This document shows, piece by piece, positions 11,763 through 64,000 of a DNA stretch of 64,000 nt. Source of the stretch: a virus. The stretch is taken from IMG/VR virus record IMGVR_UViG_3300023179_000054, positions 28,408 through 92,407 of that record; one strand, given 5' to 3'. Under the pieces are notes generated by a model. That model had not been told where the DNA came from. It was given only the letters and a program-made list of their open reading frames with translations, and made no database searches. How positions within the stretch are numbered: the stretch's first letter is position 1; each line of letters begins with the position of its first letter. The position numbers were made by a program, and so were the translations under genes.

Positions 11763-12700
11763 CTTAAAGTCTCCAATAAAACATCTTCTATATCATTACA
11801 AGTATCTTGTATAGTATGATTACACATAACATAATTATAAGCATCATCAATCTTTTTATCATTCCGTTTATGTTTACGGAGCAATTCCATTAATTCTTCT
11901 TCGTCATTATATGTGGTGCCATAATAGCACATATCTTTCGCACCGGCAATATCTCTTGCGTACCAAGGCACTTTATTCATCATAGATTCTAAAAGGACAA
12001 GTCCGAAACCTTCCTCATAAGAGTTCATAATATAAGCATCTGCGGCACTAATAGAAAGTAATACCTCTGTCTTGTCTTTACCAAAGAAACATTTTACATT
12101 ATTTGTTTCCTTTGGCATCAAATGTTCTTCACCATATCCATATAAATGAAGTTCGGCATTAGAAATCTTTGCTTTTGTAAATGCGTCTGCTAACGGTGCC
12201 ATAGCCTTGTGCGGCCAAAATCCACCTGCGGAAACAAATATTTTTTTGCCTGTTAAGTTTGCTCTTTGATATTTGTGAGGAACAATACCATGTCGAACAC
12301 GGCGACCTTTATCAATAACATTCCATTTTTTAAGGTGTTCGATATCCATAGATGTAGAATAACCAAGATAAGGATGATACTGTAGTCCTAATTTACAAAC
12401 ATCACTATCACTTGGTTTGATTATTAGATAAAGAACAGGAGACCTAATCTTATTACCATTAAAATGAATAATGTTTTGATAATAGACATCACCACCATGG
12501 ACGATAATAAGATCCCACTTTTCATTTAGTATCTGATAATCTTTATTGACCTTTACACCATTATAATCACCTTGGTGCGTCTCTGCCAATACGGTAATGT
12601 CATGACCTCTTTTAAGCATCTCTTCGGCCATGTTCTGCACATAATACTCACTACCGCCAGGATAAGGTGCGTAGCGGTGAACCACAAACAATAATCTCAT
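11759..12700 (-). CDS. GT4-family glycosyltransferase
   Basis: MRLLFVVHRYAPYPGGSEYYVQNM is the start of a GT4/GT1 transferase. VSAGGFWPHKAM, LHLYGYGEE and EEGFGLVLLESMMNKVPW (E-x7-E) follow. At 313 aa it is compact compared with bacterial family members. It overlaps the UDP-sugar dehydrogenase downstream by ATGA and abuts the GT10 gene upstream. Likely adds a sugar to a glycan or lipid-linked acceptor. Confidence 0.85.
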   Translation of the reverse strand: MRLLFVVHRYAPYPGGSEYYVQNMAEEMLKRGHDITVLAETHQGDYNGVKVNKDYQILNEKWDLIIVHGGDVYYQNIIHFNGNKIRSPVLYLIIKPSDSDVCKLGLQYHPYLGYSTSMDIEHLKKWNVIDKGRRVRHGIVPHKYQRANLTGKKIFVSAGGFWPHKAMAPLADAFTKAKISNAELHLYGYGEEHLMPKETNNVKCFFGKDKTEVLLSISAADAYIMNSYEEGFGLVLLESMMNKVPWYARDIAGAKDMCYYGTTYNDEEELMELLRKHKRNDKKIDDAYNYVMCNHTIQDTCNDIEDVLLETLR

Positions 12701-13584
12701 TATCCCTCCATAACAAACTTATCCCACCATTCATAAAGGTTGTGTAAGTCCGTATATTCATTAGGTATATCATTTTTAAAAGCAGGACGTTCTATAATAT
12801 CCAAGTATTCCTGTTTACCAGCAGGTGAATCCAGATGTTCTACATATTTAACAACATCATTTAGTGTCTTAAAATTATGGCAATTGATGAAGGCACTTGT
12901 ATTGAAATCACGGTCAACCGTTGGTGATCCCCAATATATAGGCATCGTTTTTACTTGTAAAGCATTAAACAATTTTTCGGTTGTATAACCAGGATAAGAA
13001 CCATTCTCAAAACAAATATTAAAACGATAGTTATTAAGGAAGTCTAACTTATATTGTAGTTTATCCCTAGGAAGAACCTCACCCATATTGTTTAGATGTG
13101 GACCAGCCGAGTCAACATGTTTATATGTGTTAGTTAATCCAAACATGGCGTTTCGCATTTCTTGTCGAGGATTAGAAACAACAAAGGAACAAAACTTTCT
13201 TGTATCATAATCCTTTTCATAATCATGTTTAAGACCAACTAATTGGTAATAATTGTCCGTCCATTTTTCCACTACTGCACCATACATATCGATAACATAT
13301 AGTGGCAAACGGTAATGCTTTGGACTATTCTCATGGTCGAATGTCATGGCAGCAAAACATTCATCATAGTTTGGCCTTACATTCTCACCTGTATAGAAAA
13401 TCTTTTTAACATTACTACCATACTGGCGATGTGATTGACCGAAGTTTCCATCACCATATATAAGATACTCTGGGTTATCATTTGTTATAATGATGTCGTA
13501 ATACTTACCCAGAGTATGTGTAAAGAAATTTATTGCCGTTGTGAATGTATCGGCAAAACCAATACGAAGGTTCTTGCGGGTCAT
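12700..13584 (-). CDS. GT10-family (alpha-1,3-fucosyltransferase-like) glycosyltransferase
   Basis: The C-terminal half contains FNICFENGSYPGYTTEKL followed by MPIYWGSPTV and FINCHNF, the signature of family GT10, whose known members transfer fucose from GDP-fucose. The N-terminal half (FYTGENVRPNYDECFAAMTFDH) also fits this family. Length is 294 aa. A GDP-fucose synthase is not certain in the window, so the donor could come from the host. This is a clear sign that the phage makes or decorates a complex surface glycan. Confidence 0.85.
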   Translation of the reverse strand: MTRKNLRIGFADTFTTAINFFTHTLGKYYDIIITNDNPEYLIYGDGNFGQSHRQYGSNVKKIFYTGENVRPNYDECFAAMTFDHENSPKHYRLPLYVIDMYGAVVEKWTDNYYQLVGLKHDYEKDYDTRKFCSFVVSNPRQEMRNAMFGLTNTYKHVDSAGPHLNNMGEVLPRDKLQYKLDFLNNYRFNICFENGSYPGYTTEKLFNALQVKTMPIYWGSPTVDRDFNTSAFINCHNFKTLNDVVKYVEHLDSPAGKQEYLDIIERPAFKNDIPNEYTDLHNLYEWWDKFVMEG

Positions 13585-26980: not shown

Positions 26981-29178
26981 TATCCAACCTTCTTTGCTTG
27001 GCCTGCTACACGATCAACAAACTGGCGGAGCAGGACACGATTTACAGTTTTCTTTTGTGCGAATTTAGAGAATGCCTTAGCCATTTGTCGAGCGGTATTC
27101 TTTTTAGTATTATCAATAGCCAATTCATTCTTGGTATCTTTTAGTGCCTTAGAGTCAATAACATAATATTCATCATACCCGGCACTCTTGACAGGATAGA
27201 ACTTGTTATCGTTCCAGAACTTTTGGATTTGTTTCAACTTGTCCCAATTATCTCTAAGATTAAATTGGGTAGCAAACTTATTGAAAGAATTTCCAAAGAG
27301 GAAGAAACCAACAAGATTACAACCGGTGCGATCTTTTAGGATACGCAATAGAGTGTTGGTGTTATCAGCATAATTACCATAACCCCAAGGATACCAATCA
27401 TATGTTTTACGTGTTACTTTATCAACATAGAAATAACGACGGTTTTCACGGAACTGGCGTGGTGTTGTTTCATTCTTTATACCTTCACTTGGATTGGAGT
27501 CACCATCTGTAAGGAAGATAGTGTTCACGATTTCAAGTTTATTCTTAGCACGGAAGTCATCAACCAGTTTTGGCGCAATCATAATCGCATGATTAAGTGG
27601 CGTGCCACCCATACCATCAGTTGCCAACCAGTTGCGATTAGCGGCACACCAAAGCATAGTCATAGCAAAGTTCAATTCCTGAATATTCATTCGTGAAGAA
27701 AGGAAGTTGCGTAGAACGAGGTTTGAAGCACCAATTACATTTTCTTGACCGATATATGTAAATGGATTATCACAACCGTTATCTTTGAAGGCATACACCT
27801 CGAAAGGCACTCCGATTTGTTTACAGAACAAGCAAAGCGAAAACAGTTGCTTCATGGTATCTTTCAAGTTCCATTGCATAGAACCAGACCAATCAAGGAA
27901 CATAATAAAACCGTGGTTCTTACCTTTTGGAATATTAGTAAGACGACGGAAGATATCATCATTATACTTGTAAGAGTGGAGTTTATTTGTATCAATAACA
28001 CCAGTCTTGGAGATATTGATACGGGCATATGTTTCAGCAGCCTTCTTAGCCTCAAACTCTTTTACAAGGAAAGAGATTGTTTCTTTCTCTTTCATTTTCC
28101 ATTCGGTCATTTGTTTACGGCAAAACTCAAAAACATCTTTTGTAATATAACCACGGCCAACCTCATGGTTGTGCCAATCTTCAAGGACTTTCTTATAGTC
28201 GTGAACAGCCTTGTCCCAGTTTACCTGAGGCATATTTACATAGACGTAGGTTGAATTTTCGTCTTTAACAATATCTTGGGATTTTTTCTGCCATGTTTCA
28301 TCAGTTTCAGAAACAGGAGCATTTTCAGGCATAAAGTCACCGGCACCAGCACCAACATCTGCCTGGTTGGATTGAATATCACCTTCGCCGTTTAGTGCGT
28401 CGGATTTTTCTTCACCTTCACCGGAATCGGTTTCATTTTCATCTGACGGTTCTTCGCTTTCACCGTCATCATTATTAAAATTACCGTCGTAATTATCATC
28501 AACGTCGGAATCATTTTCTTCTCCTTCTTCGGACTCGATTAGATCAAGTTCCATTGTTTGTTGGTTTTCTAGTTTTTCTTTACAGTAGATATAGATTTCT
28601 TCTGTAAGACCAACAACTTCCTCAAATGTCTCAAGACCTTCAGCCCGTTTTAGGAACACTCGTTCTTCGGGTGAAAACTCCATTTTATAGTTAATACTAC
28701 CACCTTTGAAATAAATATTTAGGCGGTCAATAAAGTTCATGGTATTGATATCACGCTTGGCCGTGCCAAAGAAATCACGTTCTACTAATTCACGGTATCC
28801 GATAAGATAGTTTTTACGTGAACCAGGATAGCGGCGCTTTTGGCGCTTATCGATACGGGCATCCTCGACACAGTTGAGAAAACCTTTAATTGTTGAAGCA
28901 AGTTGTTCGGAAATCTTTTCGTTAGGGAAAACACGGGCAGCAATACCTTCATATGCTTTTTTATATGTGTCGGCATCAGGAGTATCCAGAGCATGGCCCG
29001 TCTCATGGACAATAAGGAGGTCTTGGAGATCATTTGAGATGCCTTGCCAAATAGGCAACATCAATACACGGCCTTTAAGGTCAAACATGGCGGTCTTAAT
29101 GCCTGGTGTTTGCTGAACCGTAATATTTTCCGTAGCAAGTAGTTTTGCTAGGAGAGACGTTTGATTTCCGTTAGACAT
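26980..29178 (-). CDS. cobT: CobT-like protein: HExxH zincin plus von Willebrand A domain
   Basis: The 732-aa product has three parts. At residues about 58-62 is HETGH, a zinc-peptidase HExxH motif, with NCVEDARIDK some 40 residues later as a possible third ligand. Residues about 220-280 form a very acidic linker (EEGEENDSDVDDNYDG...). The C-terminal third is a VWA domain with a full MIDAS: DWSGS at about residue 429, then GMGGTPL and LTDGDS. This domain order is that of CobT and related MoxR partners. Start chosen at ATG 29178 (AAGGA, 5 bases spacing) after a perfect promoter. The pair may remodel a metal cofactor or protein complex; the peptidase motif suggests a proteolytic role worth testing. 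Confidence 0.85.
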   Translation of the reverse strand: MSNGNQTSLLAKLLATENITVQQTPGIKTAMFDLKGRVLMLPIWQGISNDLQDLLIVHETGHALDTPDADTYKKAYEGIAARVFPNEKISEQLASTIKGFLNCVEDARIDKRQKRRYPGSRKNYLIGYRELVERDFFGTAKRDINTMNFIDRLNIYFKGGSINYKMEFSPEERVFLKRAEGLETFEEVVGLTEEIYIYCKEKLENQQTMELDLIESEEGEENDSDVDDNYDGNFNNDDGESEEPSDENETDSGEGEEKSDALNGEGDIQSNQADVGAGAGDFMPENAPVSETDETWQKKSQDIVKDENSTYVYVNMPQVNWDKAVHDYKKVLEDWHNHEVGRGYITKDVFEFCRKQMTEWKMKEKETISFLVKEFEAKKAAETYARINISKTGVIDTNKLHSYKYNDDIFRRLTNIPKGKNHGFIMFLDWSGSMQWNLKDTMKQLFSLCLFCKQIGVPFEVYAFKDNGCDNPFTYIGQENVIGASNLVLRNFLSSRMNIQELNFAMTMLWCAANRNWLATDGMGGTPLNHAIMIAPKLVDDFRAKNKLEIVNTIFLTDGDSNPSEGIKNETTPRQFRENRRYFYVDKVTRKTYDWYPWGYGNYADNTNTLLRILKDRTGCNLVGFFLFGNSFNKFATQFNLRDNWDKLKQIQKFWNDNKFYPVKSAGYDEYYVIDSKALKDTKNELAIDNTKKNTARQMAKAFSKFAQKKTVNRVLLRQFVDRVAGQAKKVG

Positions 29179-29251: not shown

Positions 29252-29377
29252 TTAGCGTGATAGTCGATTGTAAACCCACGCGGAAGTGAAGATTATTGCA
29301 TAGATTGTAAACACGATAAGGAATGGTTCAAGTAGATCCCAACGGTGTTCAAGTTTATGGAAATCAAAGTAATGCAT
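29252..29377 (-). CDS. Small membrane protein, 41 aa
   Basis: ATG 29377 opens a 41-codon frame (MHYFDFHKLEHRW...) in a TAATG junction with the gene upstream. A hydrophobic run (LLEPFLIVFTIYAIIFTSAW) predicts one membrane helix, ending in a basic NRLSR tail. Function unknown. Confidence 0.55.
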   Translation of the reverse strand: MHYFDFHKLEHRWDLLEPFLIVFTIYAIIFTSAWVYNRLSR

Positions 29378-30636
29378 TATCTTCCTACCTGTGTTAGATA
29401 CTTGGCCTTTGTTTCTTCCCAATCCATATAGATTAGGTCATCATAGAAAAGAGTTTCCTTAGAAACACGGTCTTGTTCAATTAAAGACTTAATCCGTTTT
29501 CCTGCATACTTATCTTTCCATAGATTTACCAGAGAATCATAACTGGAATCAAACGCCTTGGCAAGTTCTTTCTCGGAAATTTCCTTACGCAAGAATTCGT
29601 TGGTGTTGGTATACAAAGGACTAAAATAGATACCACGGGCATGTTCCGATCTAATCAATTCTTTAGGAACATTTAGTTGAGAATACATGAATGTATAAGA
29701 ACGGTTCTTGTGGTCTCTCTTATAAGGCATACCATCAAGGTTCTTGGCGACATACCACTCAAAGTATTTTCTTGTATGGTTCTTTTTCAACCAATCAAGC
29801 ATAAGTTTTACAGTAGGTTTTCTTGCTTCATAAGAGACAGAGCCTGATGTGAAGCCCATTTTCTTCCAATGTTGTAGGCGATCATATTGCGATAACTGGT
29901 TAGTTTTAGACTTACCGTATAATGATGTAGTAGTAACGCCAATGAGTGTATCACCATATTGTTTTTTCCAATCTTGTTGTACCTTATCACAGAGACAAAG
30001 TAATGCTAAAAGTTTACCGCCTGTATAGTTATAACCAAGTGGTTGTAATGGCACAATAGTAGAACCAATGGCCGTGTGATTGATCATACCTTGATTAGTC
30101 TTTACCTCACGGGACCATCCAATATGGTTATCTCGTGGAGTCAAGTCTAGGAAGTCAGAAGAAATACAAATTACCCCTAGGTACTTTCCGGTAACATCAT
30201 CTTGCACAATATAAGATAGATTACGACCAATATTGGAGTTATTCTTCATAGTGGACGTAAAGTTGCGAATAGTATTCCAAGTGTCCTGCATATCAAACTC
30301 AGGAGTATAAACAAGGACTGGTTTCAATTTCGCATAGTCCATTGGATCATTAGGAATCCAGATGTTATCTTTAATCTTATTGATAGCAAGTTCCTGTTCA
30401 CCATCTTCAAGGCATGTACCAAAAAGTCCTTGGTGTGTAGGATACTTAATATGAATTTCTAACCACTTTTGATATAAAGTATATTCTTCAACCGACATCG
30501 CGGATACATTTGTGAGATCCTCAACGACGGCCTCTTTTAGTTGCTCATCGTTAAGGGCCTCAGGTGCGGTAAATGTTGATTGAAATTCATCCCACTGGCG
30601 TTCAACATCCTTTAGTTCATCTTCACTTTTTGCCAA
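29377..30636 (-). CDS. DUF4338/DruA- and Mom-like protein
   Basis: Residues about 150-290 contain GKYLGVICISSDFLDLTPRD, NHIGWS, GSTIVPLQPLGYNYTGGKLLALL and a later GDTLIGVTTTSLYG, resembling the DUF4338 family. This family includes DruA of the Druantia anti-phage system and is thought to be related to Mom-type acyl-group DNA modifiers. A helical N-terminal 90 residues and a charged C-terminus flank this core. Length is 419 aa. The start is TTG 30636, with GGAG 7 bases upstream. Family assignment rests on motif likeness. A DNA-modifying or anti-restriction role is possible. Confidence 0.5.
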   Translation of the reverse strand: MAKSEDELKDVERQWDEFQSTFTAPEALNDEQLKEAVVEDLTNVSAMSVEEYTLYQKWLEIHIKYPTHQGLFGTCLEDGEQELAINKIKDNIWIPNDPMDYAKLKPVLVYTPEFDMQDTWNTIRNFTSTMKNNSNIGRNLSYIVQDDVTGKYLGVICISSDFLDLTPRDNHIGWSREVKTNQGMINHTAIGSTIVPLQPLGYNYTGGKLLALLCLCDKVQQDWKKQYGDTLIGVTTTSLYGKSKTNQLSQYDRLQHWKKMGFTSGSVSYEARKPTVKLMLDWLKKNHTRKYFEWYVAKNLDGMPYKRDHKNRSYTFMYSQLNVPKELIRSEHARGIYFSPLYTNTNEFLRKEISEKELAKAFDSSYDSLVNLWKDKYAGKRIKSLIEQDRVSKETLFYDDLIYMDWEETKAKYLTQVGR

Positions 30637-53414: not shown

Positions 53415-55085
53415 TTACAGTCTTGGATCCCATCTTTCGTCTATAAAGGATAAACCATTCTTATCGGCATTAGACCATAAATCACCATTATCATCTTTTT
53501 CCACTATATCATTAAGACCATTATCAATAAACCCAAAGGGTGTGTGGTCGACGTCCAGAATATCCATTTGCTCTTTCGATAGAACAAAACGGATGTCATT
53601 AGAAACCGTCTCTTTAAATAATCTTTGAGAGGTTAACCACCCAAAATGAACCAAGGTCATAGCAAGGTCGTCATTACTACCTTCTTCGGCCATAAATGTT
53701 TTCTTGGTAGCCGAGAATGATGATAGTTCCATGATAGTATCAGCATCATTTATAATCAGTTTGTCATTTTCTACAAGTGCCTTCAAATTAGCACAACCAA
53801 TCATTTTAGTCTGCGCGGACATTTTAAGACCGAAAGCTAACTTATTCTTACCTGCCGCAAAACCACCGGAAGCCTGTGTTCCTTGTTTACCTTTTTGTTG
53901 AAACTTTAAAAGGTTATCGTAGTTCAATTCAAAATGAAGAATATCCGCAACCTGTAGACCGATAGAGTTGATTTCTACAAGGACAAAAGCATCATTAAAA
54001 CGTTTTGCTACGGAGTATATAACAGTAGGTAATAACAGAGGTGCTATTTCGTTGTTTCTATATTTAGCAACCTGCCTATATGGTATTTCTGAAACATCAA
54101 ACACCGAGAATGTGGAGTAATCAAGTCCCTGGCCTTCTGCCACATCTACGCAAATGACATAGGTTCTTTTTGGTTCTGGTAGTTCATAGACATCCAAATT
54201 GTTTTGAGATTCAATAGGCGATTTAAAAGATAAAGTCCTGAGTTTAGCGCCAGAGATAAGAGTATTGGTAGAACCAAGGAATTCACAACCAAACTCTTGG
54301 TCGAACTGACGTTGGCTGGTGTTTCTAATAGTTTGCTCAGCCCACTTTTGGTCTCTGCCTGGCACCATCGACCAGTGGATTTCAATAGGTTTGTAATCTG
54401 ACCTACCCTCGGTCGCATCCATCCACATCTTATAGAAAAGATTCATTCCATTTGGTGTAGAAACGATAACAACCTTAGAACTTTTACCAGAAGAAATGGT
54501 GGGATAGGTAGAAGCAAAGAATTCTTCAGCTATGTTATTGGGAACGAACGCAAACTCGTCCAAGAAAATAATGTTGAACGACATACCACGAACGGAACTA
54601 CCTGAGGTAGAGTCGGCAAGGACTCTCGAACCATTAGCAAGGTGAATAGAACCTTTGTTCCATTCTTTGATACCTTGCTTGAGAAACATAGGTAGATACT
54701 CAAATGCCAGTTTCAATCTCTGTAGGATTTCACGGGCGGTAGGCGCACGGTTTGCCAAGATGGCAATCATCATGTTCTCTGAAAATAGCACCTGGTGTAG
54801 CAAATATGCCACACTTGTAGTCGTTTTTCCAACCTGTCGTGGGAGTTTACAGATAGCAAAGCGGTTGTGATAGAAGGTGTTTAACATCTCTTCTTGAAAG
54901 TCCCACATCTCAAATGGCATAAGGCCTTTATCGATGTTGACGATTTTCATATATTTCTTGGCAAAGTATACCGGGTCATCCGCACATTTTAGATATTCAT
55001 CTAATTCTTTTTGTGTGAATGAATGGCGGTACTGTTCGCTTGGTAGATTAGGATTGTTCTGGTAGCTGAACGGTAATCGCGCCAT
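53415..55085 (-). CDS. 17: Terminase large subunit gp17
   Basis: The 556-aa protein (T4: 610) has CKLPRQVGKTTT (Walker A, about residues 80-90), NIIFLDEFAF (Walker B, about 171-180) and VSTPNG (motif III). The nuclease domain begins with VICVDVAEGQGLDYSTFSVF, Asp at about residue 314 being the first metal ligand. It translocates DNA into the prohead and cuts it. It overlaps gene 16 by 38 bases, as in related phages. Confidence 0.95.
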   Translation of the reverse strand: MARLPFSYQNNPNLPSEQYRHSFTQKELDEYLKCADDPVYFAKKYMKIVNIDKGLMPFEMWDFQEEMLNTFYHNRFAICKLPRQVGKTTTSVAYLLHQVLFSENMMIAILANRAPTAREILQRLKLAFEYLPMFLKQGIKEWNKGSIHLANGSRVLADSTSGSSVRGMSFNIIFLDEFAFVPNNIAEEFFASTYPTISSGKSSKVVIVSTPNGMNLFYKMWMDATEGRSDYKPIEIHWSMVPGRDQKWAEQTIRNTSQRQFDQEFGCEFLGSTNTLISGAKLRTLSFKSPIESQNNLDVYELPEPKRTYVICVDVAEGQGLDYSTFSVFDVSEIPYRQVAKYRNNEIAPLLLPTVIYSVAKRFNDAFVLVEINSIGLQVADILHFELNYDNLLKFQQKGKQGTQASGGFAAGKNKLAFGLKMSAQTKMIGCANLKALVENDKLIINDADTIMELSSFSATKKTFMAEEGSNDDLAMTLVHFGWLTSQRLFKETVSNDIRFVLSKEQMDILDVDHTPFGFIDNGLNDIVEKDDNGDLWSNADKNGLSFIDERWDPRL

Positions 55086-55546: not shown

Positions 55547-55553
55547 TATTTAG
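55547..55553 (-). promoter_or_regulatory. Late-type promoter box CTAAATA (genes 16/17)
   Basis: CTAAATA on the minus strand overlapping the last codon and stop of the P450 gene, 23 bases before the gp16 start codon. The terminase pair thus has its own late start. Confidence 0.65.
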
Positions 55554-56725
55554 CATTTTTTTAATATGATGTTGGAAATGATATCGGCATTTCCAGAACC
55601 AGAAACTTTATATTTTAATTCTTCATTCTTTGTTAGTATTTGGTATTTACCAATTTTATCTAACAATATCTCCAAATAAACGGTAAGTAGTTCTTTGGAT
55701 ATAGCAAGAGCAATACAGGCATGGACTCCATGACCCCATGCGAGATGTGCCGCATTATCTCTATATATATCAAATTCATCTGGATTTTTAAATTTATTAG
55801 GGTCTCTATTGGCCGACTCAAGACATGCTGCTACTCTATCACCAGGTTTTAAATTGATATTATGTAAAGTAATTTCTTTTAAAACGGTTCTGGAAAATCT
55901 TCCTGTTGATGTATTAAACCTTAGCGACTCGTTTACTGCTAATGGAATAAGTGATTTATCTTTCAATAAAATATCAAGTTGATTTTCCCTGTATAAATCA
56001 AGGGTTAAAAACTGTAATGCGGATATTAATGAACCAGCACCAGATACCATAGGCCCACCAATCATCAAAGAAAACTCATCCATTTTCTTTGGATTATTAT
56101 TCAAGTATTCGTTATAGATTCCAGGGCCAGTAGAAGGTATTTTCTTTCTTGTGGTATCTACTATTTTTTTGTAATTTTGTAATACCTTTTCAAATTTATC
56201 TGTAAAATTCTCAATAGTATCCTTAGATGTGGAAAAAGGATTATACTTTTGTGATTGTATAACAACATCTTTCACAAAAGGTTTATAGAGAGGAAGGTTT
56301 ATAATTTCTGCTGAGGCCCATGCCGCCAATTCTTCGGTCAATTCCGATATATTTAATTCGATTTTACCATCAAAATGTTCTATAGCCTTTTCAGCAAATA
56401 GTTTAGATATCCTTTTTATATTGTCTTTGCTATAGGCATTTTTAACAACATTCTTTAAATCGTTATGAATAGGATTATCACTCGCACCTAACGTAGTGCC
56501 AAATCTACGTGGGTCTTCTATAAGTAAATTACCTTTTGCTGATGAGAAAATATCTGGGTTATTAAGAATAAGATAAACATCTTCATATCGGGTCATAACA
56601 TATAGATTATACTTTTCACTCCAATATGCCGTTTCAGCATTTCGGAGTTCTTCGTATATTTTATGTTTATTTAATAACCATTCATTAGATTGAGGTTCAA
56701 ATTTTTCCATTAACAATATTTTCAT
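55550..56725 (-). CDS. Cytochrome P450
   Basis: The 391-aa protein matches a bacterial soluble P450 in length and layout. VNESLRF contains the ExxR pair (E266, R269), and AWGHGVHACIAL (about 329-340) is the heme loop, with C337 as the axial ligand and W in place of the usual Phe. The I-helix (MIGGPMVSGAGSLISAL, about 221-237) lacks the acid-Thr pair (Gly-Ser instead), so oxygen activation may differ. The C-terminal GSGNADIIS region is also typical. No redox partner is seen nearby. It overlaps the upstream virion gene by 29 bases, or 14 if ATG 56710 is used. P450 genes are rare in phages. Confidence 0.9.
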   Translation of the reverse strand: MKILLMEKFEPQSNEWLLNKHKIYEELRNAETAYWSEKYNLYVMTRYEDVYLILNNPDIFSSAKGNLLIEDPRRFGTTLGASDNPIHNDLKNVVKNAYSKDNIKRISKLFAEKAIEHFDGKIELNISELTEELAAWASAEIINLPLYKPFVKDVVIQSQKYNPFSTSKDTIENFTDKFEKVLQNYKKIVDTTRKKIPSTGPGIYNEYLNNNPKKMDEFSLMIGGPMVSGAGSLISALQFLTLDLYRENQLDILLKDKSLIPLAVNESLRFNTSTGRFSRTVLKEITLHNINLKPGDRVAACLESANRDPNKFKNPDEFDIYRDNAAHLAWGHGVHACIALAISKELLTVYLEILLDKIGKYQILTKNEELKYKVSGSGNADIISNIILKKC

Positions 56726-57206
56726 ACTCTTGTATTAGTTCACGAAATCTCTTTTTTTGAGCGGCGGTTAGACCGTCAAATGTATTAAAATTTATATCTT
56801 CATAATTTATATTATTGTTTCTTATAAAATCACCAAATACTCTTTCAAAGACTTGATAATTAATCCATTTTCCTACACTATCGGCCCAAAAATAATCTTT
56901 TCCATCATCAGGTTTAGGAGTAAAATTGTTTTCTTTATCGTATACCGTATCTATCTCTGCGATTGGCACCTCATCTATAACATACTTATCGGTCCAACCA
57001 TAGTTTGTTTTTACATATTCGGTATGAACGTGCTTTTGAAATATACTTGGTTCTGGTCTTGGTGAACGAGTAAATCTTTCAAAACCTTTTGGTGGATTTT
57101 CTGGGTCAAAGTTAGGATAAAACATACGAAGGTTCAATCCCATAATAGGATGACCTACTGCTTTACCTCTTTCTACTTTAATATATAATTCTTCTGAATC
57201 TTCCAT
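56697..57206 (-). CDS. Hypothetical phage protein, 169 aa
   Basis: HPIMGLNLRMFYPNFDPENPPKGFERFTRSPRP at the N-terminus and KDYFWADSVGKWINYQVFERVFGDFIRNNN later are recognisable phrases of an unassigned family in marine T4-like phages. It lies between the glycine-rich fibre protein and P450. Function unknown; a virion or packaging role is likely from place. Confidence 0.65.
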   Translation of the reverse strand: MEDSEELYIKVERGKAVGHPIMGLNLRMFYPNFDPENPPKGFERFTRSPRPEPSIFQKHVHTEYVKTNYGWTDKYVIDEVPIAEIDTVYDKENNFTPKPDDGKDYFWADSVGKWINYQVFERVFGDFIRNNNINYEDINFNTFDGLTAAQKKRFRELIQEYENIVNGKI

Positions 57207-57215
57207 TATTATTCC

Positions 57216-57875
57216 CTATGACCACGAAATGTTTACGTAACCGTTTTGACCGGCAGTAGCATTTTGAGGTGCGGCTGCTCCGCCAGCACCAACAACTACA
57301 GTAATATAAGTATTCCACACAGGATAACCAGATGTTGATAGAAAAGTCCATGACTTTAGTGTTTTTCCACCGGCGCCGCCTGGATATCCATTACCTGAAC
57401 CTTGTTGAGGCCAACCACCGTTTCCACCAGCACCGCCTCCACCTACTGTTACCGTCCCACCTGAACCGCCGCCGTTTGTGCCTGTATGACCGCTACAGTT
57501 GCCGCCGCCATATCCACCACCATCAGCAATAACAGAACCGAATTGACTATAACCTCCATTACCACCATCATAACCGCAGTTTCCATATCCGTAAATGTTG
57601 TGATTATCACCACCACCGCCACCACCTCCGGCAGCAACTACTTCTACTGAAAAAGATTGATAGGCAGGAACTAAAAATGAATATGTGCCTGGTGTAGTTA
57701 ATGATATAGAACCTGGTAGAGGTTTACCATAGGCATCGGAAATTTTAACAGCACCTTTTAAATCACCTAACAAATAACGAGTATCGGCATCACCGAGTCC
57801 AATTAGTGTATTAGAACCTTTAGTTATTTGTGCTATATCACCAAGTGATATTATTCCAGAATTAGCTAATGGCAT
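57216..57875 (-). CDS. Glycine-rich tail fibre/adhesin-like protein
   Basis: Residues 1-80 are beta-rich (LTTPGTYSFLVPAYQSFSVEVVAAGG). Then about 110 residues are built of Gly-rich runs (GGGGGGGD, GGGYGGGNCSG, GGGSGGTVTVGGGGAGGNGG). This resembles the polyglycine-II sandwich of T4-like adhesins such as S16 gp38, where loops between glycine helices bind the receptor. The C-terminus (GAGGAAAPQNATAGQNGYVNISW) closes the fold. It overlaps the S74 fibre gene by 14 bases. Confidence 0.7.
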   Translation of the reverse strand: MPLANSGIISLGDIAQITKGSNTLIGLGDADTRYLLGDLKGAVKISDAYGKPLPGSISLTTPGTYSFLVPAYQSFSVEVVAAGGGGGGGDNHNIYGYGNCGYDGGNGGYSQFGSVIADGGGYGGGNCSGHTGTNGGGSGGTVTVGGGGAGGNGGWPQQGSGNGYPGGAGGKTLKSWTFLSTSGYPVWNTYITVVVGAGGAAAPQNATAGQNGYVNISWS

Positions 57876-59251: not shown

Positions 59252-60256
59252 CTACTCTGTTTCTGGCCATTCCGTTATATTTATATCATAGCCATAATCA
59301 TCTGTCGGTTCTGCCGTTATTGGGTCTGGTGTAATCTGAATTGATGCTAACTTTAATGGTGATACATTAAATGAATGTATCTGACAAGTACCATTGGTTG
59401 ATACTGCGTGAACGTAGTTATTAACTTTAAATTGACCTTGAACTGCACCTAATGTTAATCTATCCAAATCAGAATTATAATCGATAATAACACCATATGC
59501 GGTTGCTGTCTTATAACTATCACCTTGATAAACCATGTCGTTTGACTTGAACACACCATTAGCATTTGCCGTATTTATCTTGGTGATGTATGCGGAACTT
59601 AAATGAAGGTCGTTATATACATTTGCGTAAACGGTACGAATAATCTTTGGATAAGAAATCGGGCCATAGTAATACATCTTCATGGTAAAGTTTAGAGTCC
59701 AATTAACATATCTTACCGTATCAAAATCACCCTCATACTGGATATCATTTGACACGTTATTAAGAATGACTGGAACATCTTTAATGAATCCAAGGTCAGG
59801 AATCATATTCGTTGCTACCGTGAAATCTGGATTAAAGAATGGTAAAATCTGTTCCACAATCTGCGTACCGTCATCGATATTTCGAGCATAGATGTTTAAT
59901 GAAAAAGTTATATCGTAAGGAACACCCATATAGCAAGATGAAACATGAGTTGTAGTGTTTGCCTTAGCAGCCTTTAATAATGAGTTTTGTTTTCTTGTAG
60001 CATCATAAGAAACGCCTGTAATCTCAAAACTCATTCTTGGTAAAACTGTCTGTAATTGACGTAGTAAATCCGGGTCGGAGAAAATACGAGTAATCATTTT
60101 CTCTTTTGGAGCATAGATGATAGGCACCAGAAAACGGTTAGTTTCTTTACCAGTCTGGTCGTTCTTTCTAACAATTTTTATATCATCAAAAAGACGTCCA
60201 AAAAGGACAACTGCTTTACGGGTTAGTTGATGATAAAAATGTGAATTACCTAACAT
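59252..60256 (-). CDS. 15: Tail sheath stabiliser and completion protein gp15
   Basis: RKAVVLFGRLFDDIKIVRK, NRFLVPIIYAPKEKMITRI, VLPRMSFEITGVSYDATRKQN and TQIVEQILPFFNPDF match T4 gp15 in order. Length is 334 aa (T4: 272), with a longer C-terminal part. It forms the ring ending the tail where the neck joins. Gene order 13-14-15 is conserved. Confidence 0.88.
   Translation of the reverse strand: MLGNSHFYHQLTRKAVVLFGRLFDDIKIVRKNDQTGKETNRFLVPIIYAPKEKMITRIFSDPDLLRQLQTVLPRMSFEITGVSYDATRKQNSLLKAAKANTTTHVSSCYMGVPYDITFSLNIYARNIDDGTQIVEQILPFFNPDFTVATNMIPDLGFIKDVPVILNNVSNDIQYEGDFDTVRYVNWTLNFTMKMYYYGPISYPKIIRTVYANVYNDLHLSSAYITKINTANANGVFKSNDMVYQGDSYKTATAYGVIIDYNSDLDRLTLGAVQGQFKVNNYVHAVSTNGTCQIHSFNVSPLKLASIQITPDPITAEPTDDYGYDINITEWPETE
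59278..59285 (-). promoter_or_regulatory. T4-type late promoter TATAAATA
   Basis: TATAAATA on the minus strand, a perfect T4 late box, within the end of gene 15 and 30 bases before the S74 fibre gene. Confidence 0.6.
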
Positions 60257-61940: not shown

Positions 61941-62546
61941 TTATCGGAACTTAGGCCCTTCCACCCATATCACAATAGACTTACGAATACCTGTGAGAAC
62001 TGGTTTGACCCTATGTATAATAAAAGAAGGAAAGGCAATAATTTTACCTTTATGTATATCAATTGTTTGTGGATTACTTCCTATATCAATTTGGAATTCT
62101 CCGCCTGTAAAATCTTTTCTCGGTTCGGATAAAAGCATTACTAAAGATAACTTTCTGGTCGATCTTTCCGGACCCTCAGTTATGGTATTTAAAATACTGT
62201 CCATATGCCAGTCATATTTTCCTTCATTTTCAGAATTATAAACTGTATATTGAAAACTATCATAACCGTATAAGTCAAAATTATAATAATCATTATTTAA
62301 GGATTCTATCACATAATTAAATTTATCAAATATCCATGAATTCGATTTATTTTTATAATAAAAATTTAATTTTGATTTTCTAATATATTCACAATTTTCA
62401 CCATCACCAACAGTTGTAGATGGTTTTAATTCATCTTGGGAACAATAATCTTCAAGTTCCATTAATTCTTTTTCTGTAAAAGCACCATCCCACCAGACAC
62501 TACTATAAATTATTCTTCTTTTTTCAAAAGGATCATTTGAAAGCAT
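61941..62546 (-). CDS. 2OG-Fe(II) oxygenase (PKHD/prolyl-hydroxylase-like)
   Basis: YDWHMDSILN has the HxD pair, and TGGEFQID, IIAFPSFIIHRVKPV and GIRKSIVIWVEGP give the rest of the jelly-roll with distal His and the 2-oxoglutarate Arg. This order is typical of PKHD-type hydroxylases. Length is 201 aa. The gene is AT-rich relative to gene 13. It sits among virion genes. A role in hydroxylating virion proteins is possible; phages with collagen-like proteins, as here, are of interest for this. Confidence 0.8.
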   Translation of the reverse strand: MLSNDPFEKRRIIYSSVWWDGAFTEKELMELEDYCSQDELKPSTTVGDGENCEYIRKSKLNFYYKNKSNSWIFDKFNYVIESLNNDYYNFDLYGYDSFQYTVYNSENEGKYDWHMDSILNTITEGPERSTRKLSLVMLLSEPRKDFTGGEFQIDIGSNPQTIDIHKGKIIAFPSFIIHRVKPVLTGIRKSIVIWVEGPKFR

Positions 62547-62952: not shown

Positions 62953-64000
62953 TAGATTTTAGGCCCGTTAATTGTGCCTGCATTTATATATGTGATATTT
63001 CCTGTACCACTAACACCAGAACCTTGTGGTCCTGCCGCACCTGTAGCACCAGTTGTTCCTGCTGAACCTGCTGCACCAGGAGCACCTGTAGCACCTTTGG
63101 TTCCTGTTCCTCCAGCTGGTCCTGAAGTGCCAGTAGCACCTTTGGTTCCTGCTGGACCGGTTGAACCTGTTGCTCCGGCGCCGCCGCCGCCGTGGCCTGA
63201 TTCACCAGGCTGGCCAGAAATACCTACGTTTCCTCCATGTCCCCCGTGACCGCCGTGAACATCACATCCTGGGTAATGTCCGTGAATATGACAACCGGTA
63301 TAACCTGGTTCCTGACAATATTCATGTCCTGCATGACCGCCCCAGTCGCCGCCTCCGCCGCCGCCGCCGTAAATACCATGTCCTGGTTGTGCGCCAGATC
63401 CTGCAGGAGATCCTCCACCGCCACCGCCGTGTCCGCCGTGAACATGCGATCCACAAGCTTGAGCAAAGTATCCTTGGCCTCCGGCGCCGCCGCCGCCTGT
63501 TCCGCCTGGGCCACCTGGACCTGCTGTTCCGCCAGGTCCACCAGGTCCTGCTGGGCCTGCGGCGCCGGCCGGCCCGCCTGATCCACCTGGTCCTGCTGGG
63601 CCTGCTGCGCCACCAGGGCCGCCTGTACCTCCAGGTCCGCTGGCGCCGCCTGTTATTGTTGTAGTATTGTTTAATAAAATTTTAATACCTGAAACTGCGT
63701 CTGCTTGGAAAGAAATACCGCCCGTTTGTCCTGTTCCACCTGTGCCACCTGGTTGTCCGCTACTTCCTGCACCACCAGTACCGCCTGTGCCACCTGGTTG
63801 CGATGTACCGCCTGTGCCACCAGGACCGCCTGTTCCTCCTGTGCCACCAGGGCCGCCTTTGCCGCCTGTGCCACCTGAACCGCCGTTAGCATTACCTCCT
63901 GCCCCATATACTCCTGTAGTTCCAGTAGCACCTGTGGTTCCTGTGGTTCCTGTAGTTCCGATTGTTCCCGCAGCACCAGTTGTTCCAGTAGTGCCTGTAG
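62953..64000 (-). CDS. Collagen-like glycine-rich fibre/adhesin protein, 5' end outside window
   Basis: The minus strand is open from 64000 to TAA at 62953, at least 348 codons with no start inside the window. The protein is Gly-X-Y-like (TGTTGATGTTG, GPAGPGG, GATGAPGAAG) and Gly-rich overall, with polyglycine stretches. A central segment is rich in His and Cys: HVHGGHGGGG, then GHEYCQEPGYTGCHIHGH and CDVHGGHGGHGG, a probable metal-binding or receptor loop. The end (NITYINAGTINGPKI) is typical of phage fibres. Long competing frames with Gln-, Arg- or Ala-rich translations are out-of-frame shadows. Confidence 0.8.

Follow-up and report, generated by a model that had tools for sequence, protein, structure and literature searches.

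A cytochrome P450 encoded between the tail-fibre and terminase genes of a T4-like phage, and its relatives in other phage contigs

The question raised by this locus is what a phage would do with a cytochrome P450 encoded between its tail-fibre and terminase genes, and whether such an enzyme has been borrowed from a host or belongs to phages. The gene lies in a stretch of 64,000 nucleotides, referred to below as the window, from the IMG/VR virus record IMGVR_UViG_3300023179_000054 (positions 28,408 to 92,407). In the open-licence literature, the P450 of mycobacteriophage Adler, which is said to derive from its host (PMC9405906, PMC11814380), was the only phage one found; the other viruses for which P450s are on record are giant viruses and a frog herpesvirus. 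What appears to be new is a P450 family, found here in phages only, whose membership of the P450s is itself certain.

The P450 gene and its place in the window

The features on which the argument draws are as follows, with residues numbered from the methionine at 56710.

53415–55085, minus strand: terminase large subunit gp17 (terL), downstream of the P450 gene
55048–55524, minus strand: terminase small subunit gp16 (terS), downstream of the P450 gene
55547–55553, minus strand: CTAAATA late-promoter-like motif upstream of terS, containing the P450 stop codon TAA (55550–55552)
55550–56725, minus strand: cytochrome P450 coding sequence, 391 aa (386 aa from the likely start at 56710), identified by Pfam, PDB match, model and fold search
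55709–55738, minus strand: heme loop WGHGVHACIA with the proximal cysteine C332 (codon 55715–55717)
55919–55930, minus strand: K-helix ExxR motif (ESLR), E261..R264
56030–56044, minus strand: I-helix SGAGS, with Gly where P450-T2 has its acid (E238) and Ser as the alcohol residue
56465–56533, minus strand: B-C loop GNLLIEDPRRFGTTLGASDNPIH, with G, N, L, R, T, G and D positions common to bacterial CYP203A-type P450s
56697–57206, minus strand: orf169, directly upstream of the P450 gene and overlapping it
57216–57875, minus strand: glycine-rich tail/adhesin-type protein, part of the module carrying the P450
57862–59247, minus strand: tail fibre whose C-terminal part is a Peptidase_S74 chaperone domain; upstream of it, at 59278–59285, stands a perfect TATAAATA

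The open reading frame is intact and encodes a soluble P450 consisting of the P450 domain alone, with no fused C-terminal reductase domain in its 391 residues, which sets it apart from the CYP102-type phage P450. It matches the Pfam p450 family (E 1.6e-12) and hundreds of solved P450s in the PDB, P450-T2 (8fbc) being the best of them (1.4e-39), while no PHROGs model matched it. An AlphaFold2 model built from 20 phage homologues (pLDDT 87, pTM 0.89) returned 1653 PDB matches at E≤0.001 in Foldseek; all 50 of the matches listed are P450s, the best being again 8FBC with a TM score of 0.83, followed by CYP109, CYP199A, CYP153 and CYP134 enzymes. These Pfam, PDB and fold-search matches rule out a chance resemblance, and with both the ExxR motif and the heme cysteine in place the gene certainly encodes a heme-thiolate P450. 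The description of the gene in the preliminary account, as a full-length soluble P450 with these two motifs, is thereby borne out in sequence and in predicted fold. Because the orthologues begin with MxxFxPxS, the true start is probably at 56710, from which the overlap with the upstream reading frame is 14 nt, as against 29 nt from the annotated start.

The phage is T4-like, the closest named relatives of its terminase being those of T4-like cyanophages and pelagiphages at ~55% identity, and the P450 gene sits between a tail-fibre/adhesin-type module (S74 fibre, glycine-rich protein, orf169) and terS/terL. The preliminary description had placed it between a virion gene and the terminase genes and had its stop codon overlap the terminase late promoter; both points agree with this arrangement, in which the TAA lies inside the late-promoter-like CTAAATA, a motif with 20 copies on the coding strand against a single copy on the opposite one. 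No motif of this type lies within the 45 bases upstream of the P450 gene, for which reason the gene is probably read through from the tail-fibre genes; its position and the promoter motifs suggest that the enzyme would be made late in infection together with them. It has to be noted that the overlap with the upstream neighbour, which had been taken to exclude an assembly error, is real but makes a weak argument by itself; an artefact is instead rejected because independent contigs from other metagenomes share the gene order and the junction.

A parallel in position is offered by pelagiphage HTVC008M (L162:7620-9014), whose terminase genes flank an annotated tryptophan halogenase (PrnA) and a phytanoyl-CoA dioxygenase, so that there, too, a T4-like phage has an oxidative enzyme inserted in its neck and terminase region. 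PrnA is, however, flavin-dependent and belongs to another enzyme family, and the parallel is one of position only, which does not speak for a shared function.

Viral relatives in three genomic contexts

Relatives of the P450 were absent from the results of a single-protein pattern search of viral contigs but were recovered by alignment-based searches, an alignment based on contigs L004 and L047 yielding 23 viral loci and a wider one 40 contigs. The relatives encoded by these 40 further IMG/VR contigs are 40–75% identical, and the viral family comprises 25 clusters at 95% identity; the source metagenomes are, we take it, mostly freshwater. The earlier statement that P450s are rare in phages agrees with the lack of any relative among the cultured phages of INPHARED, yet it has to be set beside these 40 other viral contigs. 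The search for the same gene at this position in related phages, which had been proposed, succeeded: among the best 80 terminase relatives, the P450 is present in two contigs, L004 (70% identical) and L047 (63%), where it occupies the position that it has in the window, and in the window lineage it directly follows orf169 in 12 of 13 contigs and lies one gene later in the 13th. The orf169/P450 module itself varies in location, standing before gp16 or before another structural gene, and three contigs (L019, L020, L060) have the adhesin module without the P450, from which it follows that the P450 is an accessory gene.

Its near-constant association with orf169 in this lineage brings up the possibility that the P450 modifies a structural protein of the phage, e.g. 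the glycine-rich adhesin or orf169, within the tail-fibre module with which it travels, and a 2OG-Fe(II) oxygenase gene adjoining a collagen-like gene in the same window would fit such a role. This is nevertheless improbable, considering that the adhesin module occurs without the P450 in the three contigs just named and that the P450 occurs away from tail-fibre genes elsewhere in the family. At least two of the family's contexts are T4-like, the P450 of the second of these lying near a T4-type RNase H gene; jumbo-type contigs, one of them of 348.7 kb with a terminase gene, make up the third. Around the P450 of the jumbo-type contigs are found genes for fatty acid desaturase, Rieske, QueC-like PP-loop, cupin-like (with weak cupin matches) and 2OG oxygenase proteins, as well as TctC or AhpC/AhpD.

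These neighbours could be taken to mean that the P450 performs one step of a phage-carried biosynthetic pathway leading to a new or altered small molecule, for instance a signal, an antibiotic or a lipid, and so could an AMP-binding enzyme gene which overlaps that of the P450 in L047. We hold this to be quite unlikely, given that the neighbours vary between lineages and that the AMP-binding enzyme is present in L047 alone and in none of the nine phage records searched, for which reason a biosynthetic cluster built around it was rejected. No neighbour gene is common to all three contexts; a pathway therefore cannot be read off from them, and a widely available small substrate is favoured over a dedicated protein partner.

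Several observations on these contigs may be recorded in their own right. The AMP-binding (adenylate-forming) enzyme of L047 (L047:2955-4406), directly upstream of the P450, is complete and very distant from its solved relatives. In seven jumbo-type contigs (L141, L143, L145, L149, L154, L156, L157) the P450 lies in an island with repeated QueC-like PP-loop proteins, cupin-like proteins, unannotated proteins of ~100 aa, desaturases and P-loop proteins. Genes of tripartite tricarboxylate transporters, unusual for phages, encode a TctC receptor (L143:13679-14626) and a TctA membrane protein (L158:55-1488), and in L101 the P450 is preceded, at a distance of a few genes, by AhpC/TSA peroxiredoxin and AhpD/CMD-family genes (L101:3655-4700). 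Two further contigs have a putative GIY-YIG homing endonuclease reading frame interrupting the gene of the large terminase subunit (L085:2123-4867, L086:2929-5673).

Active site and origin of the viral clade

Active-site positions were compared between 32 viral and 32 bacterial sequences in P450-T2 numbering. The Glu and Arg of the ExxR motif are present in 32/32 viral sequences and the heme cysteine in all 31 that are readable there. N65, L66, R73, S239 and F285 are identical across all readable viral and bacterial sequences, T77 is kept in 31/32 viral ones, and the G, N, L, R, T and G of the B-C loop signature GNLxxExxxRxxxTLG are found in at least 31/32 viral and 32/32 bacterial sequences; the pocket residues K176, T231 and P71 are not conserved in this comparison. 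The I-helix acid (Glu238), by contrast, is kept in every bacterial sequence and replaced in the viral ones, by Gly in 19, Ser in 11 and Tyr in 2; a Ser occupies the alcohol position in bacterial and viral sequences alike. The preliminary description, which had found the I-helix to lack the usual acid–Thr pair, was thus right as regards the acid, missing from all 32 viral sequences, but not as regards the alcohol, since a Ser remains, as is the rule in the CYP203A relatives too. In most P450s the acid–alcohol pair protonates the peroxo intermediates (PMC5377825, PMC5818669), and with half of the pair lost an altered oxygen activation is predicted.

The best sequence and fold match of the phage P450 is to CYP203A enzymes (P450-T2, 8FBC; CYP203A1 of Rhodopseudomonas palustris), with which it has in common the B-C loop residues (GNL, R73, T77) and the alcohol-position Ser. 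It differs from them in lacking Glu238, in the heme loop, where Cys-Leu-Gly of CYP203A stands against Cys-Ile-Ala in 29/31 viral sequences (the second residue after the cysteine being Gly in the bacterial group), and in being at most about 32–34% identical. Members of a P450 family are by the nomenclature rule about 40% identical, and the viral proteins, at 21–32% identity to bacterial ones in the full alignment (34% in the best local one) and without the A-G-x-E-S of the I-helix, fall outside CYP203 even though they carry its B-C loop signature.

Other P450s lie further off. The CypX P450 of an uncultured Caudovirales phage (A0A6J5NCR8, from a structure library) has the same overall fold (TM 0.83) but is 22% identical in the structural alignment and belongs to another P450 group. 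As a rule, CYP102 enzymes carry a fused reductase, whereas the P450s described here stand alone and group together as a viral clade. Although it is likewise phage-encoded, CYP102L1 of Mycobacterium phage Adler was reported to have been taken from the mycobacterial host (PMC11814380).

For the present family, a recent transfer from a host bacterium is not supported. The relatives found in a GTDB scan, 27–34% identical, resemble CYP203A and come from Pseudomonadota and, in a few cases, Bacteroidota; plasmid matches reach at most about 32%. The bacterial sample rests on two peptide patterns and about 800 sampled genomes, so that a closer bacterial group may lie outside it; 399 genomes of one proteobacterial order gave one further match, 28% identical and with the bacterial-type I-helix AGVES, and a phylum-wide sample of 398 genomes gave none at E≤1e-50, an empty answer obtained without a positive control. 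In the tree all 29 viral rows fall on one side of a branch with support 100/100 and a length of 1.94 changes per column. What was found in phage contigs only thus appears to be a previously unrecognised P450 family, which, as part of the joint reading given below, would have descended long ago from bacterial CYP203A-type P450s or be sister to them. The viral P450 is under purifying selection, with dN/dS of 0.05–0.17 between close pairs (informative pairs only, those with too few changes being left aside), and, as an enzyme gene flanked by phage genes and so constrained, it may be regarded as a putative auxiliary metabolic gene. The existence of 25 diverged clusters, phage-only as found here, under such selection suggests that some phages have P450 chemistry as a permanent element of their infection programmes, and the clade-wide change of the acid to Gly or Ser beside an intact substrate loop provides a clean natural test of the role of the acid–alcohol pair.

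P450-derived glycosyltransferase activators (TIGR04515) have lost the heme-ligand cysteine, and the viral protein could by analogy be a catalytically dead scaffold, which the missing I-helix acid and a weak NCBIfam match to TIGR04515 might seem to favour. That match scores 48 bits against a cut-off of 343, however, and the heme cysteine and ExxR, which a heme-free scaffold would not need, are invariant; identity with these activators was rejected, and a scaffold role of any kind is extremely improbable.

Proposed reaction and substrate

The timing, electron source, substrate class and chemistry of the phage P450 we infer from the comparisons above. The reading that on the whole appears somewhat the more probable is that of a phage-only P450 family whose members would act late as auxiliary enzymes, oxidising a small polar metabolite of the host with an altered activation of dioxygen. 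The substrate would probably be an aromatic acid or an aromatic amino acid, which may be regarded as the leading class because the B-C loop residues of CYP203A are kept, an extrapolation across about 30% identity; CYP203A1 binds 4-hydroxybenzoate and other substituted aromatics, and P450-T2 binds L-mimosine and emodin and receives its electrons from ferredoxin systems (PMC7780096). No ferredoxin (Fer2) was found in the nine phage records searched and no flavodoxin in that of the window, all of these records being incomplete, so that electron donors of the host, or peroxide, would be needed; a host ferredoxin is the candidate electron source. Without the I-helix acid, the activation of dioxygen would be slow or rerouted: a serine/water relay may take over, the reaction may be of a peroxo type or driven by peroxide, or its outcome may be other than a hydroxylation.

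Peroxide use, or another unusual reaction, is among the possible properties of the phage P450. In its strict form, this would make the enzyme a peroxygenase in which the loss of the acid reflects the use of H2O2 in place of O2 and a redox partner, with no electron supply required. The acid is missing in CYP152 peroxygenases (OleT, BSbeta) as it is from 32/32 viral sequences, the phage records searched yielded no ferredoxin, and in L101 and L152 the P450 has peroxidase genes of the AhpC/TSA type and the AhpD/CMD family at a few genes' distance. Yet the Arg-Pro that is the hallmark of CYP152 (as defined in PMC5377825) is absent from all viral sequences, which have G/S/Y and S at the acid and alcohol positions, so that a CYP152-type identity is not supported; with the alcohol-position Ser kept, and unlinked redox partners being common for bacterial P450s too, a peroxide-driven peroxygenase seems unlikely. 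A broader variant, which we consider conceivable but doubtful, is that of a virus-specific P450 family in several phage lineages that has given up ordinary O2-driven hydroxylation and carries out some other heme-thiolate reaction on a small host metabolite late in infection; after the fixed loss of the proton-relay acid, this may be peroxide- or peroxo-driven or an O2-independent rearrangement.

Elsewhere in the window, Pfam matches between about 5000 and 16000 include sugar epimerases, GDP-mannose dehydratase and glycosyltransferases, with an alpha-1,3-fucosyltransferase at 12700–13584, and a homologue of the Druantia defence protein DruA is encoded at 29377–30636 (matched part 29587–30291). 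A collagen-like Gly-X-Y gene with a 9-nt repeat register occupies 62984–64000, near the 2OG-Fe(II) oxygenase gene at 61941–62546, a proximity which suggests a possible hydroxylation of the phage collagen-like protein.
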